Assembly: GCF_001278075.1 (NCBI RefSeq)
Contig: NZ_CP011340.1
Span: forward strand, 744,001-808,000
Source of the DNA: Streptomyces pristinaespiralis
Lineage (GTDB): Bacteria > Actinomycetota > Actinomycetes > Streptomycetales > Streptomycetaceae
Reading direction: 5' to 3'
DNA: 64,000 bases
A program made the position numbers and the translations under genes. The notes under the pieces were generated by a model. That model saw only the letters and a list, made by a program, of their open reading frames with translations, made no database searches and was not told the origin of the DNA. This document shows, in pieces, positions 3,622 to 17,934 of this stretch (its first letter is position 1; the number at the start of each line of letters is the position of its first letter).

Positions 3622-5059
3622 GCACGTTGTCGGAGGTGCGCATCATGAGCGCGTAGACACACGCGGCGACGGTCATGCCGACCGGCAGGGCGAGGTCCAC
3701 TCCGCCCAGGGCCCGCGCCACGGGCCCGGTGTAGAGCGTGTTCACGCTCAGAGCCGCCGCGAGGACGCCGGCCCCGAGGGCGACGGCGCCCGCCGGGTTG
3801 ACGCCGGCGGTGTACCAGAAGGGGCTGCCGGTGGTCTCGTCCATGAGTGCGGGCCCGTCGTAGCGGTTGCGGCGTATCAGGATGTCGGTGGCGTAGACGG
3901 CCATGGCGGGACCGAGGAGGACGACGGTCAGCTGGAGGACGTTGCTGACGGTGTCGAGGAAGCTGGAGACGAGGAGCCCGTACAGCGTGAGCGAGACGGC
4001 GGCGACGCCGTCGACGAGCACGCTGCGGGAGCGGCGGATGCGGATGCCGACGGCCTGGAGGGCGAGGCCGGCGCTGTATGCGGTCAGGGCGTTGATGGCG
4101 ATCGTGCCGACGATCAGGGCGAGCAGGAAGACCGGGTGGAACCAGCCGGGAAGGATCGTCTCGAGTCCGGTCTGAGGGTCGGTCATGTCGACAGCGGTCG
4201 CCGCGAAGGCGCCGAGTGAGCAGACGAAGACGCTCGGCACGAAGCCGCCCAGAGCGGTCCAGCCGATGATCGCCTTCGCCGATGTCGTGCGGGGCAGGTA
4301 GCGGGAGAAGTCGGCGCTGGTGGTGTAGGACAGCGGGCCGGAGCCGACGAGGGTCACGCCGGCGACGAGCACCGCCCACAGGTCGACGCCGGTCAGCGGC
4401 TCGGCCGGCGTGTAGCCGAAATCGGTGTGCCGGACGACGGCCACGGCGACGACGGCGAAGGCGGCGGTGAGTGCCAGCGTGATCGGGAGGTACAGCTTCA
4501 TGATCATGCCGTGGCCGTAGACGCCGATGGCCAGGGTGAGGGCGGCGACGAGCACCACGACGGTGACCTTGACACCGGTGTCGGCCGTGATCCCGGTCTT
4601 CTCCACGAGGGCGAAGGCGGCGGTCGCGGCGGCGGCCAGGTTGAGGGCGAAGTAGCAGACGGAGATCATCCAGCCGACGATCGCATTGTTCACGCGGTTG
4701 CCCCGGATCCCGTACATCGCCCGTGTGACCACCTCGCTGGGCGCGCCCGCCGCGGGGCCGGAGACGGAGAGCAGCCCGGTCAGCACCCAGAACAGGTTGC
4801 CCACGACGATCACGGCGAGGGACTGCCACAGGCTCAGGCCCATGAGGACCAGGGCGCCACCGATGACCAGGCTCAGGTAGTTGACGTTCGCCGCCGCCCA
4901 GACGGAGAAGAGCTGCCGTGGCCGGCCGTGGCGCTCGTGGTCGGGGATGTGGTCGATGCCGTGTGCCTCGATGCGTGCCGCCCGGTCCCCGGGGGGCCGC
5001 GGGGCCGCATCGGGTGTGGCGTTCGCGCCGGGACGCGGGTCGGGAATCGTGGACGCCAT
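3596..5059 (-). CDS. NCS1-family permease (cytosine/purine/hydantoin-type)
   Basis: Inner-membrane transporter of 487 residues in the nucleobase:cation symporter-1 family, which moves purines, cytosine, allantoin or hydantoins with a cation. After a hydrophilic N-terminus of about 50 residues come roughly 12 hydrophobic segments. The family's early conserved region is visible (SVWAAANVNYLSLVIGGAL; NLFWVLTGLLSVSGPAAGAP), as is a mid-protein GPLSYTTSADFSRYLP block typical of CodB-like members. The ATG at 5059 is chosen because GGAGG lies 5 bases before it; an in-frame TTG at 5083 is possible. It is divergent from a TetR gene that precedes an amidohydrolase, which suggests uptake of a cyclic amide or nucleobase for hydrolysis. 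Exact substrate unresolved. Confidence 0.88.
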   Translation of the reverse strand: MASTIPDPRPGANATPDAAPRPPGDRAARIEAHGIDHIPDHERHGRPRQLFSVWAAANVNYLSLVIGGALVLMGLSLWQSLAVIVVGNLFWVLTGLLSVSGPAAGAPSEVVTRAMYGIRGNRVNNAIVGWMISVCYFALNLAAAATAAFALVEKTGITADTGVKVTVVVLVAALTLAIGVYGHGMIMKLYLPITLALTAAFAVVAVAVVRHTDFGYTPAEPLTGVDLWAVLVAGVTLVGSGPLSYTTSADFSRYLPRTTSAKAIIGWTALGGFVPSVFVCSLGAFAATAVDMTDPQTGLETILPGWFHPVFLLALIVGTIAINALTAYSAGLALQAVGIRIRRSRSVLVDGVAAVSLTLYGLLVSSFLDTVSNVLQLTVVLLGPAMAVYATDILIRRNRYDGPALMDETTGSPFWYTAGVNPAGAVALGAGVLAAALSVNTLYTGPVARALGGVDLALPVGMTVAACVYALMMRTSDNVLAARGRAV

Positions 5060-5093
5060 GGGCCCCTCCGGGTGCTGGTTCAACCACCTGCTT

Positions 5094-5110
5094 GTTTGTT
5101 GGTCGCAAAC
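5094..5110. promoter_or_regulatory. Probable TetR operator in permease/TetR divergent promoter
   Basis: GTTTG-7-CAAAC forms a perfect 17-bp inverted repeat in the 68-bp gap between the divergent permease and TetR starts. The surroundings are the most AT-rich in this part of the window. Position and symmetry fit an autoregulatory TetR site; no binding data. Confidence 0.5.
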
Positions 5111-5127
5111 TCAATAGCATCGATTCC

Positions 5128-5778
5128 ATGTCGTCAAGCGCTCAACACAAGCGAATCCGCAAGTCTCCGGCCGCCAGACGTGCGGAAATCGTTGCGGCGG
5201 CCTCGATGGTCGCTCTGACCGAAGGGCTGGAGTGCATCACGCTCCGGCGGATCGCGGAGGAGCTCGACGTCCGCCCGGGACTGATCAGTCACTACTTCCC
5301 CGCGGTGGAGGACCTGGTGGCCGAGGCCTACGGCAGCGCCGCCGGTTCCGAACTCGACGGCCTCCTGCCGGCCGACCGGGCCGGCGCCACGCCGACCCAG
5401 CACCTGGCGCGGTTCTTCGGCCGGGCGACAGGACCGGGGTTCGACGACATCAGCCGGCTCTGGCTCAACGCCCGGCACCTCAGCCGCTACCGGCCCGCCC
5501 TGCGCGACCGTGTCGCGGTGCAGGAGGCCGCTTGGCGCGACCGGCTCGGCGGCCTCATCCGTGACGGGGTGGAGCAGGGCGAGTTCCGCACCGACGAGCC
5601 AGAAGTGACGGCCATTCAGATCCTCGTCGTCATCGACGGCCTCGGCGTCCACGCCAACAGCGCCGCCGGGGGCAACGGCGGCCGTCCACCTGCCGTCCTG
5701 CGCATGGCCGTCACCACCGCCGAACGCGAACTCGGCCTGCCCGCCGGAACGTTGACCGCTTCCGCCACCGCGAACTGA
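5128..5778 (+). CDS. TetR/AcrR-family transcriptional regulator
   Basis: A 216-residue one-component repressor. The N-terminal helix-turn-helix is clear: RRAEIVAAASMVALTEGLE, then TLRRIAEELDVRPGLISHYF, ending in the conserved HYF recognition-helix tail at about residues 20-65. The helical C-terminal ligand domain has no assignable specificity. The ATG at 5128 is the start that puts the HTH at the usual distance from the N-terminus. It is divergent from the permease and 20 bp upstream of the amidohydrolase on the same strand, so it probably controls both through the 17-bp palindrome at 5094. Confidence 0.88.
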   Translation: MSSSAQHKRIRKSPAARRAEIVAAASMVALTEGLECITLRRIAEELDVRPGLISHYFPAVEDLVAEAYGSAAGSELDGLLPADRAGATPTQHLARFFGRATGPGFDDISRLWLNARHLSRYRPALRDRVAVQEAAWRDRLGGLIRDGVEQGEFRTDEPEVTAIQILVVIDGLGVHANSAAGGNGGRPPAVLRMAVTTAERELGLPAGTLTASATAN

Positions 5779-5798
5779 CCGTTTCCAAGGAGCCCCCT

Positions 5799-7424
5799 GT
5801 GCGCACCTCGCTCGTCCTCCTCTCGGCCCGTCTCCTCGACCCGGTCTCCGGCTCGTTCCTGTCCGGGACCGCTCTCGCCGCGTCCGGAGGCCGGATAACC
5901 GCCATCGGCGACGACCGGGAGATCCGCGCGCTCGCCGACCCCTCGACGACGGTGATCGACCTGAAGGGCGCCGTACTGACCCCCGGCCTCGTCGACGGGC
6001 ACCTGCACCCCGTCTCCGGCGCCGAACTCACCCACGGCCTCGACCTGTCGGGCTGCGCCGACCTCGAGGCCGTGCGCCGGGCGCTGGCCCACGAGGCGGC
6101 GAGCCTCGCGCCCGGGGCGTGGCTGCACGGCTGGGGCCTCGACCCCAACGTCTTCGCCGACCGGCCCGTCTCGACCGCTCCTTTCGACGCCGTACTCGAA
6201 GGCGTTCCCGCCCTCCTCCTCCTCTTCGACGCCCACTCCATGCTCGCCAGCCGGCGGGCGCTCGAGCTCGCCGGCGTCGACGGACCGCGCACCTTCGACC
6301 AGGCCTCGGCCGAGGTCGTCTGCGACGAGGCGGGCCGGCCCACCGGTCTCCTGCTGGAGGACGCCGCCTGCGAACTCGTCGAGCGCGCCGCCCCGCAGCC
6401 CACCCGGGCGGAACGCCGGGCCCGGCTCGCCGCCGCCCTGCGGGCCATGGCCGCCACCGGGCTCACCGGCGGCCACGCCATGGACGCGAACGGCGACAGC
6501 CTGGAGCTCTACGCCGACCTCGACGCCGCCGGAGAACTCCCGCTGCGGCTACGGGTCGCGCCCTGGTGCCAGCCCGGCATCGACGCCGACGGGCTGCAGG
6601 CGCTCATCGAACAGCAGGGCACCGGCGGCACGCTGTGGCGGACCGAGGGCGTGAAGCTCTTCATGGACGGCACCATCGACAACGGCACCGCCTGGCTGGA
6701 GCGCCCCGACTGCCACGGCGAGTCCACCCACGCCTTCTGGCCCGACCCGGCGGAGTACACCCGTGTCATCGGCCGGCTCCACCGGGCCGGGGTGCCCACC
6801 GCCACCCACGCCATCGGCGACGCGGCCGTCCGGCACGCCCTCGACTCCGTCGAGAAGGCGCAGGCGGAGGGCGGGCGCGAGGTGCGGCACCGGATCGAAC
6901 ACATCGAGACCGTGCCCGACGACACGCTGCGCCGCTTCGCCGCACTCGGCGTCGCGGCCTCCATGCAGCCCACCCATTGCTGCGACTTCACCCGGGCCGA
7001 CCACACCGACAACTGGTCGCGCCGCCTCGGCGAGGAACGCGCCTCGCGCGCCTGGCGCTGCCGCGACCTGTGGGACTCCGGCGCCACCGTCGTGCTCGGC
7101 TCCGACTGGCCCATCGCCCCCTACCCTCCGCTGGGTGTCATGGCGGGCGCCCGACACCGCCGGCCCGGCCGGGACCTCACCCAGCCGCCGCACGGCCCTC
7201 AGCAGGCGCTCACCCCGCTCGAGGCACTCCAGGGAATGACCGTCAACGCGGCCTGGGCCGCGGGCGCGACGCGGGAGGCCGGCCGGCTCGCCGTCGGTCA
7301 CCGCGCCGACCTCACGGCCTTCGCCGCCGACCCGCTCACCACGGCCGCCACCGACCTGCCGGACGTGCCTGTGCTGCTCACCGTCCTCGACGGCCGTCCC
7401 ACGCACCGCGACCCGAGCGTGTGA
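5799..7424 (+). CDS. YtcJ-type amidohydrolase (amidohydrolase_3)
   Basis: A 541-residue metal-dependent hydrolase of the amidohydrolase superfamily, likely cleaving a cyclic amide, N-formyl or related C-N bond. Metal-ligand signatures appear in order: DGHLHP (HxH, after strand 1), the KLFMDGTIDNGTAW block with the family Lys/Asp, ATHAIGDAAV (His), RHRIEHIE (His) and GSDWPIAPYPP (metal Asp). The N-terminal and C-terminal strands of the small beta sandwich (GRITAIGDD; GHRADLTAFAADP) are also present. The GTG start at 5799 has AAGGAG 7 bases upstream. It lies 20 bp after the TetR gene, so they are probably cotranscribed, and opposite the NCS1 permease, implying an uptake-and-hydrolysis pathway. 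Confidence 0.88.
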   Translation: MRTSLVLLSARLLDPVSGSFLSGTALAASGGRITAIGDDREIRALADPSTTVIDLKGAVLTPGLVDGHLHPVSGAELTHGLDLSGCADLEAVRRALAHEAASLAPGAWLHGWGLDPNVFADRPVSTAPFDAVLEGVPALLLLFDAHSMLASRRALELAGVDGPRTFDQASAEVVCDEAGRPTGLLLEDAACELVERAAPQPTRAERRARLAAALRAMAATGLTGGHAMDANGDSLELYADLDAAGELPLRLRVAPWCQPGIDADGLQALIEQQGTGGTLWRTEGVKLFMDGTIDNGTAWLERPDCHGESTHAFWPDPAEYTRVIGRLHRAGVPTATHAIGDAAVRHALDSVEKAQAEGGREVRHRIEHIETVPDDTLRRFAALGVAASMQPTHCCDFTRADHTDNWSRRLGEERASRAWRCRDLWDSGATVVLGSDWPIAPYPPLGVMAGARHRRPGRDLTQPPHGPQQALTPLEALQGMTVNAAWAAGATREAGRLAVGHRADLTAFAADPLTTAATDLPDVPVLLTVLDGRPTHRDPSV

Positions 7425-15684: not shown

Positions 15685-16599
15685 CTAGAAGTTGCCGTAG
15701 TTGACCTGCCATGTGGGCAGGCCCATGCGGCGCCAGACGGCGACGACCCGGTCGCGGTCGTCGAGGGAGACGCGTACGGCGAAGCGGTGGCGGACATGGC
15801 GGTCGAAGAGCTCCGCCTTCACGACGTCGTCACGCCGGCCGTCGTCGGCCGCGCGCATCCACAGTTCGTCGTAAGGAACTTCGTGGCGGCGTAGCCACGC
15901 CTCCGTCCGCTCCCGGTGTTCCTCACCGCGCCCGGAGAGCAGGACGATCACATCCCCGTCCGCCCGCCGGAACGACCACAGCGCGCTCCGCACCGACACG
16001 TTGAGCAGATCCTCCCCGCAGCGGGTGAAGTCGTAGGGGCTGCGGTCGCCCCTGATGGCGAGTGTGCCGTCGATGTCGCACATCACCGCCGCAGGCAGCG
16101 CCGGGTCGGCGACGTACGGTTCGACCGGGGGCTCGTCGTTCAGCCAGTCCTCGGTGAGCCGCCAGCCGCTCCTCCTGGCCTTGGCGTGCTTGTCCGCGAG
16201 AATCCGGATGATCTCCTCGCCGACCTGCCGCTCCCGTTCGGCGTCCCGCCGTACGCACTCGTCGACCGGTACGCCGGTGAAGTCGTGCACCTTGAACTCG
16301 GCCTGGCCGGCCACCGCCGACTTCAGCCGCTTGGGGATGTGCGGAGTCAGGTGCGTGTTGTCCACGACGACGTCGAACCCGTCCTCGACGGCCGCCCGCA
16401 CCGCGGCGTCCTGGATCGCCAGCACGGTCTGCTCGTGCGCGTGCGAACGGCCCTGCGCGGCCGCCGGGATGTCGAGCATGACCCGCAGGTCGTCCAGGTT
16501 CACCCGCCGGATCCGGCCCGCCGACTCCGCCTGAAGCGTGCGGGCCGCGGTGGTCTTCCCCGAGGCGGGCAGCCCCGTCATCACGTGTACCACGGGCAC
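15685..16599 (-). CDS. Polynucleotide 5'-kinase/3'-phosphatase, T4 Pnkp-like (RNA end healing)
   Basis: A 304-residue two-domain enzyme that should convert 5'-OH and 3'-(cyclic)phosphate RNA ends to ligatable 5'-phosphate/3'-OH. Kinase domain (about 1-150): P-loop GLPASGKTT at 9-17, LDD at 35-37, VVVDNTH near 78-83. Phosphatase domain (about 170-304): the HAD motif DIDGT (Asp175, Asp177), LLSGR at 220-224, MRAADDGRRDDVVK near 248-261 and SLDDRDRV at 279-285. Kinase-then-phosphatase order is that of phage T4 Pnkp. The GTG at 16599 has AGGAG 8 bases upstream, lying inside the end of the RNA ligase gene whose stop is 2 bases before it, so translation is coupled. The partner ligase makes a role in RNA repair very likely. 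Confidence 0.88.
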   Translation of the reverse strand: MPVVHVMTGLPASGKTTAARTLQAESAGRIRRVNLDDLRVMLDIPAAAQGRSHAHEQTVLAIQDAAVRAAVEDGFDVVVDNTHLTPHIPKRLKSAVAGQAEFKVHDFTGVPVDECVRRDAERERQVGEEIIRILADKHAKARRSGWRLTEDWLNDEPPVEPYVADPALPAAVMCDIDGTLAIRGDRSPYDFTRCGEDLLNVSVRSALWSFRRADGDVIVLLSGRGEEHRERTEAWLRRHEVPYDELWMRAADDGRRDDVVKAELFDRHVRHRFAVRVSLDDRDRVVAVWRRMGLPTWQVNYGNF

Positions 16600-16601
16600 G
16601 G

Positions 16602-17810
16602 TCAGTTCTCCTCGTCGGTCTGGAACGGGTCGGCCGTCGCGGGCCGGACGGAACGGTACGTCAGGAGTTCGGTCGGACGCCCGTCCAGCCGCAGGAACAT
16701 GGCGGAACGGACGGTGGAGTCGGGCAGCGACTTCACCGCGCGGGCGAAGGCGCCCCGGTCGGCGGCGAGCGGGGCGAGGGAACGGTACGCCTCGTCGATC
16801 GCGCGCTCTCGGTCGGCCACGTCCTTGTCGATCCGGGTGATCACCTCGCGCACCCACGCGTCGAACTCGTCGGGCACCTGCTCCAGCAGCGCGTCGAGCG
16901 GCTTCCCTTCGGACGCCGCGAGGTCCGCCACTTCACAACCCAGCGCCTGCGCCACCCGCTTGACGGGCAGGCCGGCGAAACGCTGGATGCCGTGGCTCCG
17001 CCAGATGTCCCGCTCGGTGACGCCGGTGAGCACCTTGTGGAGCCGTACGTACTCGGACAGTTTGGCCTTCGCCCGCACGCCGGAGGCGAAGCGCAGGACG
17101 AAGCCCTCCGCGTCGGTGCCCGTGGCGGTCCGGCCGCCGGGCAGCCGGTTGCCCTCGGCAAGGGCGAGCAGTTCGGCCAGCGGCATGGCGGGCCAGACGG
17201 TGACGACCGAGCCGATGCCCCGCCAGTCCGCCCCGGCCTCGGCCAGAGCGATCTCCGCGCCGTCCTTGGCGAAGGCGGCGAGGAGCACCAGGTCCCGGCG
17301 GTCGCCGTAGTCGACGACGATGCGGTTCTGCGGGTAGAGGATCTCGGCGAGGTAGGTCACCCCGGGTGTCAGCGCGGAGGTGTCACTGTCGTCCAGCAGC
17401 CGCTGGGCCCACACCGCCTGGGTGCTGATGAAGGAGCCCTTGGACGCCACACGCCACCGGCCGGCGTAGTGGAACACCACCGCGAGGCTGCCGTCGACCT
17501 TGTCGTAGACCTCGAACGGCTCGTCCGGGAGGGCGGGCGCGTACGGCTGACCCGCCCGGTGCTCGCCGACGTTGAAGAACTTCGGCAGCGGAAGGGCGAC
17601 GATCTCGCCGGTGGCGTCATCGACGACCAGGCCGCGGCAGCGCATGGTGACCCGGTTCCACACGCGCTCGTACTGACACGTCCTCGTGTACGTGTAGAGG
17701 GACAGCGGCAGTTCGGGGTGGCGCTTGCGGGTGACGTGCCCTGCCGCGAGAGCCGCCGCCAACTCGTCGGGCGGCAGCAGCTCGTGGAGGGTCGCGTACG
17801 CCTGGCTCAT
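16602..17810 (-). CDS. RNA ligase, T4 Rnl1-like
   Basis: A 402-residue ATP-dependent RNA ligase (T4 RnlA is 374). Nucleotidyltransferase motifs: motif I YDKVDGSL with adenylated Lys104; the ASKGSF block at 122-127 (motif Ia); YLAEILYPQNRIV (motif III, Glu156); EGFVLR at 235-240 (motif IV); and KAKLSEY from about 248 (motif V). The SPQNRIV-like string and the Rnl1-type C-terminal domain separate it from Rnl2 and DNA ligases. ATG 17810 has GGAGG 5 bases upstream; an in-frame start 11 codons earlier lacks this. First gene of a two-gene operon with the Pnkp-like enzyme, together able to heal and seal broken RNA. Partners suggest tRNA or other structured RNA as substrate. Confidence 0.9.
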   Translation of the reverse strand: MSQAYATLHELLPPDELAAALAAGHVTRKRHPELPLSLYTYTRTCQYERVWNRVTMRCRGLVVDDATGEIVALPLPKFFNVGEHRAGQPYAPALPDEPFEVYDKVDGSLAVVFHYAGRWRVASKGSFISTQAVWAQRLLDDSDTSALTPGVTYLAEILYPQNRIVVDYGDRRDLVLLAAFAKDGAEIALAEAGADWRGIGSVVTVWPAMPLAELLALAEGNRLPGGRTATGTDAEGFVLRFASGVRAKAKLSEYVRLHKVLTGVTERDIWRSHGIQRFAGLPVKRVAQALGCEVADLAASEGKPLDALLEQVPDEFDAWVREVITRIDKDVADRERAIDEAYRSLAPLAADRGAFARAVKSLPDSTVRSAMFLRLDGRPTELLTYRSVRPATADPFQTDEEN

Positions 17811-17934
17811 GTGGTCCTCCCGTTCGTGAACCGTGATTGTCACGCGCGGGAGGCTGTGCCGCGTACCGAATTACCTGCGAAGACGGGTGCCGGCGCGGCT
17901 GGGTCCCCGGATCGCCGCGTTGCCGGCGGCCGGG

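Follow-up and report, generated by a model that had tools for sequence, protein, structure and literature searches.

A phage-type RNA heal-and-seal operon in Streptomyces pristinaespiralis, predicted to be under host control

A window of 64,000 nucleotides from the single-contig, 8.53-Mb genome of Streptomyces pristinaespiralis (positions 744001-808000) contains a two-gene operon for a T4 Rnl1-type RNA ligase and a Pnkp-like kinase-phosphatase, which we read, at a probability of roughly 0.6, as a phage-type heal-and-seal module that is under host control and is predicted to answer translation stress. Briefly, a ribonuclease would leave RNA ends with a 2',3'-cyclic phosphate and a 5'-OH, Pnkp would heal both of them, and the ligase, charged with adenosine monophosphate on Lys104, would rejoin the ends, most probably those of a cleaved tRNA; this is the heal-and-seal chemistry described for phage T4 (PMC4411300, PMC3400036). 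The T4 analogy, together with tRNA halves reported during S. coelicolor development (cited in PMC4390854), makes tRNA the likeliest substrate, and by that analogy we infer it here. The operon would be switched on when translation stalls, be it through ribosome-targeting antibiotics, amino-acid shortage or the loss of tRNA by cleavage, and the pair would act alongside the widespread Pnkp-Hen1 system and RtcB. Here, we set out the evidence for the enzymes and their pairing, which is near certain, and for a host-regulated repair role, which is likely, before weighing the proposal that the regulator is WblC. The features concerned are collected in Table 1.

Table 1. The ligase-Pnkp operon and its predicted promoter, in window coordinates
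Feature	Position	Strand	Basis
T4 Rnl1-type ATP-dependent RNA ligase, 402 aa	16602..17810	minus	Pfam RNA_lig_T4_1
Pnkp-like 5'-OH kinase and 3' HAD phosphatase, 304 aa	15685..16599	minus	AAA_33 and HAD_PNKP; PDB; T4 Pnkp alignment
Predicted -10, GACAAT	17836..17841	minus	matching hexamer in 52/53 main chromosomal operons (the pattern is the anchor)
Predicted -35 region, TACGCG	17860..17865	minus	column profile, weakly conserved except first T (41/52)
AT-rich element TAATT, candidate WblC/WhiB7 AT-hook site	17869..17873	minus	3 bp upstream of the -35

The sole Pfam match of the ligase is PF09511 (RNA_lig_T4_1; E=1.2e-15, 58.4 bits against a curated cut-off of 28.3), and its score of 43.5 bits against TIGR02308, the NCBIfam equivalog model for T4 RnlA, lies below the cut-off of 242.25; on these profiles the protein is a relative of T4 RnlA, not an equivalog. 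Its nucleotidyltransferase part occupies residues 1-256, most structure rows spanning 7-256, and residues ~260-390 are helical in the model, with an alignment to 5tt6 that reaches residue 391 at a root-mean-square deviation of 21. A phmmer search of the ligase against PDB sequences gave no match at 1e-3. Aligned with T4 Rnl1, the ligase retains Lys104 (in KVDGS) and Glu156, along with R59, K77, E235, K248 and K250, and we take these positions to represent the residues essential in T4 and motifs I, Ia, III/IIIa, IV and V. Conservation extends throughout the family: Y41, R59, K77, K104, D106, G107, S108, E156, R163, E235, K248 and K250 are invariant in 57/57 genus rows and in 20/20 viral or plasmid rows. 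Variation among the inspected ligase positions was seen at V105 and at K124, the motif Ia lysine, which is arginine in 5/57 genus rows.

The Pnkp gene starts with GTG after a gap of two bases (16600-16601), and its product has the AAA_33 kinase domain at 4-126 followed by HAD_PNKP at 169-304 (E=3.6e-48). Weaker matches to Zeta_toxin, KTI12 and CPT all fall over the P-loop kinase part, and a match to phrog_505 spans residues 2-304. In the PDB it matches Pnkp1 (4xrp, 7.4e-42) and T4 Pnkp (1ltq, 1.6e-27), and the alignment with T4 Pnkp, at 34% identity, retains the P-loop and DxDGT motifs. The P-loop residues and D175, D177, R186, R224, D280 and D281 are invariant in 56/56 genus rows and 5/5 viral or plasmid rows, with D37 and D258 being the variable positions among those inspected. 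From these residues we infer that the pair is catalytically active. An earlier sequence-only reading of this DNA had called an Rnl1-type ligase with an intact active-site Lys104 and Glu156 and, two bases past its stop codon, a kinase-then-phosphatase enzyme in the T4 order, and the Pfam matches, both T4 alignments, the invariance of the residues and the coordinates confirm those calls. PADLOC returned no match for the six proteins submitted.

The same reading treated the genes as a coupled unit, and the genus agrees. Ligases were detected in 59/295 genomes (E<=1e-5) and Pnkp adjoins the ligase in 58 of these 59 carriers, so the pairing is not a matter of chance. With start codons chosen by script, the gap between the genes is -1 to 5 nt in 47 genomes and 21 to 129 nt in 6, and in three others the two are fused into one open reading frame (ORF; 779 aa in G042, 761 aa in G054 and 783 aa in G166) that runs from the ligase through an Ala/Pro-rich linker to the kinase and the phosphatase (L028 for G042, L029 and L049 for G054, L114 for G166). 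In the ligase tree, G042 and G054 do not have G166 as their sister, so fusion may have occurred more than once. The fusions recall fungal Trl1, but the C-terminal end of Trl1 is a cyclic phosphodiesterase, whereas the Streptomyces proteins end in a HAD phosphatase. The sole ligase without Pnkp, in G138, sits amid genes judged by eye to be phage genes.

Both genes show purifying selection, the median ratio of non-synonymous to synonymous substitution (dN/dS) being 0.30 for the ligase and 0.22 for Pnkp (1225/1225 pairs each, from the unfused operons). The underlying alignments cover the carriers other than G119 and G223, in which both genes are broken, and L032, which has a split frame. Ligase and Pnkp distances correlate across 53 genomes (r=0.82, 0/2000 permutations). 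They also track those of the Pnkp of the Pnkp-Hen1 operon (r of 0.69 for the ligase and 0.79 for Pnkp, 0/2000 each) in a comparison of 20 carriers, in which the G006 row spans residues 6-96 only and G248, of 21 genomes, gave no row. This second correlation suggests that descent was for the most part vertical, G227 being one of the exceptions.

The evidence for host control lies upstream of the ligase, where the 53 main chromosomal operons (all carriers bar G138, G023, G275, G283, G119 and G223) share one element despite their differing upstream genes. Columns -32 to -28 of a profile anchored on the GASAAT-like hexamer are A/T; three unconstrained base pairs and a T at -24 follow, and a spacer of 18 bp leads from the -35 hexamer to the -10. 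With this strict anchor, itself drawn from the same operons, at least four A/T out of five occur in 52/53 operons vs 2/600 control regions, and A/T plus T at -24 in 41/53 vs 0/600; with the looser anchor NANNNT the figures are 53/53 vs 31/600 and, with T at -24, 41/53 vs 6/600. The controls were taken upstream of other genes within these loci, operon-internal genes included, at starts guessed by script. The AT-rich layout is absent from all 17 viral or plasmid copies examined (L082 and L090 lie outside this set) and from G138, and of the three divergent chromosomal copies introduced below, two (G023 and G283) have 4/5 A/T but lack the T at -24.

A further candidate in this region, an RNA hairpin that would hide the ribosome-binding site by pairing CCTCCCG with CGGGAGG, was rejected: folding of the alignment gave no consensus structure (energy 0.0), and the CCTCCCG arm lies upstream of the -10, before the predicted transcription start, with CGGGAGG at the ribosome-binding site (window 17811-17870). 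The two arms do match each other better than shuffled partners (mean 6.08 vs 5.87 of 7, 0/2000, 52 operons).

The layout recalls that of WblC (WhiB7) promoters. The S. coelicolor promoter model reads GAAAWY, 3 bp, TKGMNN, 16-19 bp and TANNNT, with the start site 7-8 bp past the -10, and the regulon takes in tRNA-processing enzymes and tRNAs (PMC7157823). The operon family has this arrangement, in that its AT-rich element stands 3 bp ahead of the -35 and its spacer to the -10 falls within 16-19 bp, bearing in mind that the anchor comes from the same operons. Scored against the WblC consensus, the operons average 9.4/13 vs 8.1 for the 600 controls, and 25/53 reach at least 10 vs 32/600; 23 of these 25 best operon sites begin 63-67 nt ahead of the start codon. 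WblC control of the operon is nevertheless a tentative assignment, at a little under even odds. Should WblC be the activator, translation stress as the trigger would follow from the promoter, and it is this likeness of the upstream element to WblC/WhiB7 sites that favours translation stress in general over one specific toxin or phage. A rival that keeps the repair role intact is that the promoter is read by a housekeeping sigma factor with the help of another AT-binding activator; the weak -35, a window site that scores no better than controls and the published -10 of TANNNT against GASAAT here (PMC7157823) all speak for it, whereas the GAAAWY-like hexamer with its 3-bp and then 18-bp spacing agrees with the WblC layout and the strongest WblC targets have less T at the first -10 position (PMC7157823). 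We regard this rival as quite possible, though we lean against it.

Similar sites occur at the other RNA-repair genes of the host, whose genome also holds RtcB and a Pnkp-Hen1 operon in which an 853-aa Pnkp lies beside hen1. Upstream of rtcB is GAAAAC-TGG-TTGCCG-19-CACAAT (12/13), its -10-like hexamer lying 107 nt before the assigned start, a result for this genome alone. For hen1, we compared the host with 20 hand-picked, and so not random, genomes (12 carriers and 8 non-carriers) and found a site scoring >=10 upstream in 16/21; a site of >=11 is present in 11/21 real regions (that of G049 being elsewhere) vs 0/210 shuffled trials. The -10-like hexamer begins exactly 13 nt ahead of the hen1 start codon in 17/21 genomes (L291-L310, L111), so that the message would be leaderless; in G227, G207, G049 and G245 the site is not at the usual place. 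The AT-hook wblC gene of the host (L210, with RGRPRK) itself has a 12/13 site upstream within its 3.1-kb locus. Together, these sites raise the prospect, which we also put somewhat below even, that the WblC/WhiB7 response to translation-blocking drugs includes RNA repair as one of its branches: rnl1-pnkp, pnkp-hen1 and rtcB would share WblC-type promoters, broken tRNA could call for its own repair by stalling translation of the wblC leader, and the phage-type pair would have been captured into this circuit. Hen1 is present in 268/295 genus genomes and in 57/59 ligase carriers (the exceptions being G078 and G085), which, with RtcB and Pnkp-Hen1 in the host, marks the pair as an accessory system and not a replacement. 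The host hen1 has an in-frame TAG at codon 58 (L111 8795-8797, minus strand, G000:C1), which could reflect either a genuine lesion or an error of sequencing; the other Hen1 places among the matches listed have no stop, and the Hen1 matches of G162 and G223 are split.

As to its origin, the 53 main chromosomal ligases form one clade (100/99), as do their Pnkps (99/98), in trees that are unrooted and have long branches. Branching outside this clade are the copies on the IMG/VR contig L077, which has both genes, and the ligases of five Streptomyces plasmid records (50-55% identity); the three plasmids fetched are all linear and have no Pnkp in the fetched stretch. Thirteen viral ligases of 59-66% identity group with the G138 ligase (support 86/92), and no Pnkp was found in these 13 lone-ligase records, which may be fragments. 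Three further viral contigs (L094, L096 and L098) hold both genes in the same order, and the named Streptomyces and Arthrobacter phages have remoter ligase relatives (best 35% identity). In a separate viral contig, L097, a Pnkp of 61% identity lies at 5001-5921, and the stretch fetched gave no match for the ligase. Since the viral contigs may be prophages, the cautious description of the pair is phage-type, and its derivation from a phage would be a further step. A second, divergent pair, whose genes overlap by one base, is found in G023, G275 and G283 (L075, L037 and L036) and branches apart (100/100), so the genus has probably acquired such pairs at least twice.

A phage or plasmid remnant with no present role in the host would fit the finding that, outside the clade, the pair is nearest to copies on viral contigs and linear plasmids, and that both genes are broken in two carriers. 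We consider such a remnant very improbable, as the genes show purifying selection and intact motifs in the intact copies, the conserved upstream element is specific to the main chromosomal copies, and no phage gene is found among the few annotated neighbours.

A different alternative concerns the source of the damage. T4 repairs tRNA cut by PrrC, and Streptomyces lives among toxin producers; the pair could thus be a dedicated antidote to one ribotoxin or anticodon nuclease, self-made or from rivals, for which the T4 repair pair (described in PMC4411300) is the precedent. The AAA_13 family of PrrC and RloC was found in 0/295 genus genomes (E<=1e-10 or the family cut-off, up to three candidates per genome being scored in the rows shown; other anticodon-nuclease families were not searched), with control searches positive in E. 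coli and one Bacteroides, and PrrC/RloC is rejected as the partner nuclease. Neighbours on both sides of the pair vary by clade and none of those annotated is a nuclease toxin, and the flanking RNase HI and NYN_YacP genes, tried as parts of the system, were set aside because they occur in 86/101 and 89/101 genus genomes. An antidote to a single toxin is, on this evidence, unlikely. The parallel with T4 and PrrC drawn in the sequence-only reading is as such unsupported; its statement that no toxin gene is adjacent holds among the annotated neighbours, most neighbouring ORFs being unscanned, save for a gene of the NPP1 family in three genomes. What stands of that reading overall is the intact ligase and Pnkp repair pair, what lacks support is the parallel with PrrC, and what is added is the conserved WblC-like upstream element.

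Several features of the neighbourhoods, tabulated without L055 (G186, a HAD-only match), are recorded for completeness. Within one clade, three genomes have the NPP1 gene, of the necrosis-inducing protein family, next to the pair (L060 7476-8276, L045 and L048). NYN_YacP lies, in one clade, just downstream of Pnkp (L052 10634-10984 and others) as the sole NYN_YacP match in those genomes, and in other species it is elsewhere in the genome. A DEAD-helicase gene follows Pnkp in 4/39 genus loci, the window excluded.

For the wider family, GTDB genome contigs were scanned with an alignment of divergent ligases, which gave 365 relatives, the best 80 of which were examined. These come from Actinomycetota, Bacteroidota, Cyanobacteria and others, and for 62 of the 80 the stretch fetched also contains a Pnkp match, in some cases 2-4 kb off. 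ORF-cluster labels, partly spurious in GC-rich loci, were used only with tblastn positions and Pfam scans. The nameable neighbours often point to RNA repair. The Hen1 and PNKP_ligase clusters each recur in 16 of the 80 loci, and in a Flavobacterium locus (L268 5221-11612) an Rnl1-type ligase, a Hen1_N protein, a PNKP_ligase protein, Pnkp and TatD follow in order; L268 is thus a composite operon with two ligase types, and other Flavobacterium loci lack the Hen1 and PNKP_ligase clusters. In L224 and L235, RlaP, annotated as 'RNA repair pathway DNA polymerase beta family', is placed either between the genes for ligase and Pnkp or beyond them. A relative on a Rhizobium phaseoli plasmid (L035 5923-12683; 44% identity over 61% of the query) adjoins genes annotated as rtcR, an RNA-binding protein and RtcB, with no Pnkp match in the fetched stretch. 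In L244, a WYL-domain gene is divergent to the relative of the pair. A search of the phylum with a 10-row alignment matched 4/396 genomes, all of the genus; it misses divergent relatives, as the genome-contig scan found other actinobacterial ones.

These loci bear on a further alternative, namely that the pair processes or circularizes RNA, or heals DNA ends, and is not for repair. An archaeal Rnl is reported to circularize C/D box RNAs (PMC9014305), which lends the idea some precedent; against it, the pair resembles the tRNA-repair enzymes of T4 in its Rnl1 fold and in the T4 order of its Pnkp, and some distant relatives adjoin Hen1, RlaP, RtcR or RtcB genes. A non-repair role seems to us quite improbable, and the repair role proposed by the sequence-only reading gains from those distant loci with Hen1, PNKP_ligase, RlaP, RtcR or RtcB genes.

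Such RNA-repair operons are not new as a kind, and the Streptomyces pair can be placed among several known systems. It has the ligase motifs, kinase-phosphatase order and predicted chemistry of T4 Rnl1 and Pnkp, but the T4 genes are not adjacent, whereas here they form a chromosomal two-gene operon, ligase first, with a 2-nt gap and a conserved upstream element; T4 also answers PrrC, a family of which no member was found in our genus sample. In the PDB, the window Pnkp is closest to Pnkp1 of the Capnocytophaga Pnkp1-Rnl-Hen1 system, and both systems encode ligase and Pnkp as individual genes of an operon, with hen1 elsewhere in the genome (PMC4411300). Unlike in that system, the window ligase is Rnl1-type (PF09511), not PNKP_ligase type, and the host hen1 sits with its own 853-aa Pnkp; some Flavobacterium loci have an Rnl1-type ligase alongside Hen1, Rnl and Pnkp genes. 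Pnkp-Hen1 is likewise a heal-and-seal system, is present in the host genome and has a similar site upstream of hen1, but it consists of one 853-aa Pnkp and a methyltransferase, which leaves a mark at the site of repair (PMC4411300), and the window pair has no methyltransferase. RtcR-controlled RtcB operons (PMC7790460) are another case of regulated RNA repair, in which activator and enzyme family differ, and the Rhizobium ligase relative stands next to rtcR and rtcB. Open-licence literature yielded no paper on the Streptomyces pair, nor any that places RNA repair under WblC.

A number of observations count against a phage-type module under host control that answers translation stress. The pair is limited to about a fifth of the genus sample (59/295), and both genes are broken in 2/59 carriers (G119 and G223), possibly through assembly errors; with other repair systems present, it may also be redundant. 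The sequence points to no RNA substrate, as the window has no tRNA gene, nor any Rfam match over the gathering score, and no linked nuclease was recognised. As for the promoter, WblC sites are degenerate and the window site itself (GTAATT, a poor -35 and GACAAT) scores 8/13, not above the control mean of 8.1. The ratios given for the upstream element overstate the case, because the operons under test also supplied the strict anchor, because the genomes are related to one another and because the controls are imperfect in taking in operon-internal genes. Finally, rtcB, hen1 and the ligase go unmentioned in the main text of the paper on the WblC regulon (PMC7157823).

Little is known of what bacterial RNA-repair enzymes act on in nature, or of what sets them off. 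If the proposal is true, a common promoter layout would tie three separate Streptomyces repair systems to one known stress regulator, RNA repair would be linked to intrinsic tolerance of ribosome-targeting antibiotics, and the shared layout would make it possible to test directly, and at low cost, what RNA repair is for and when it comes into play. The three fused proteins, in turn, provide single-chain heal-and-seal enzymes for study.

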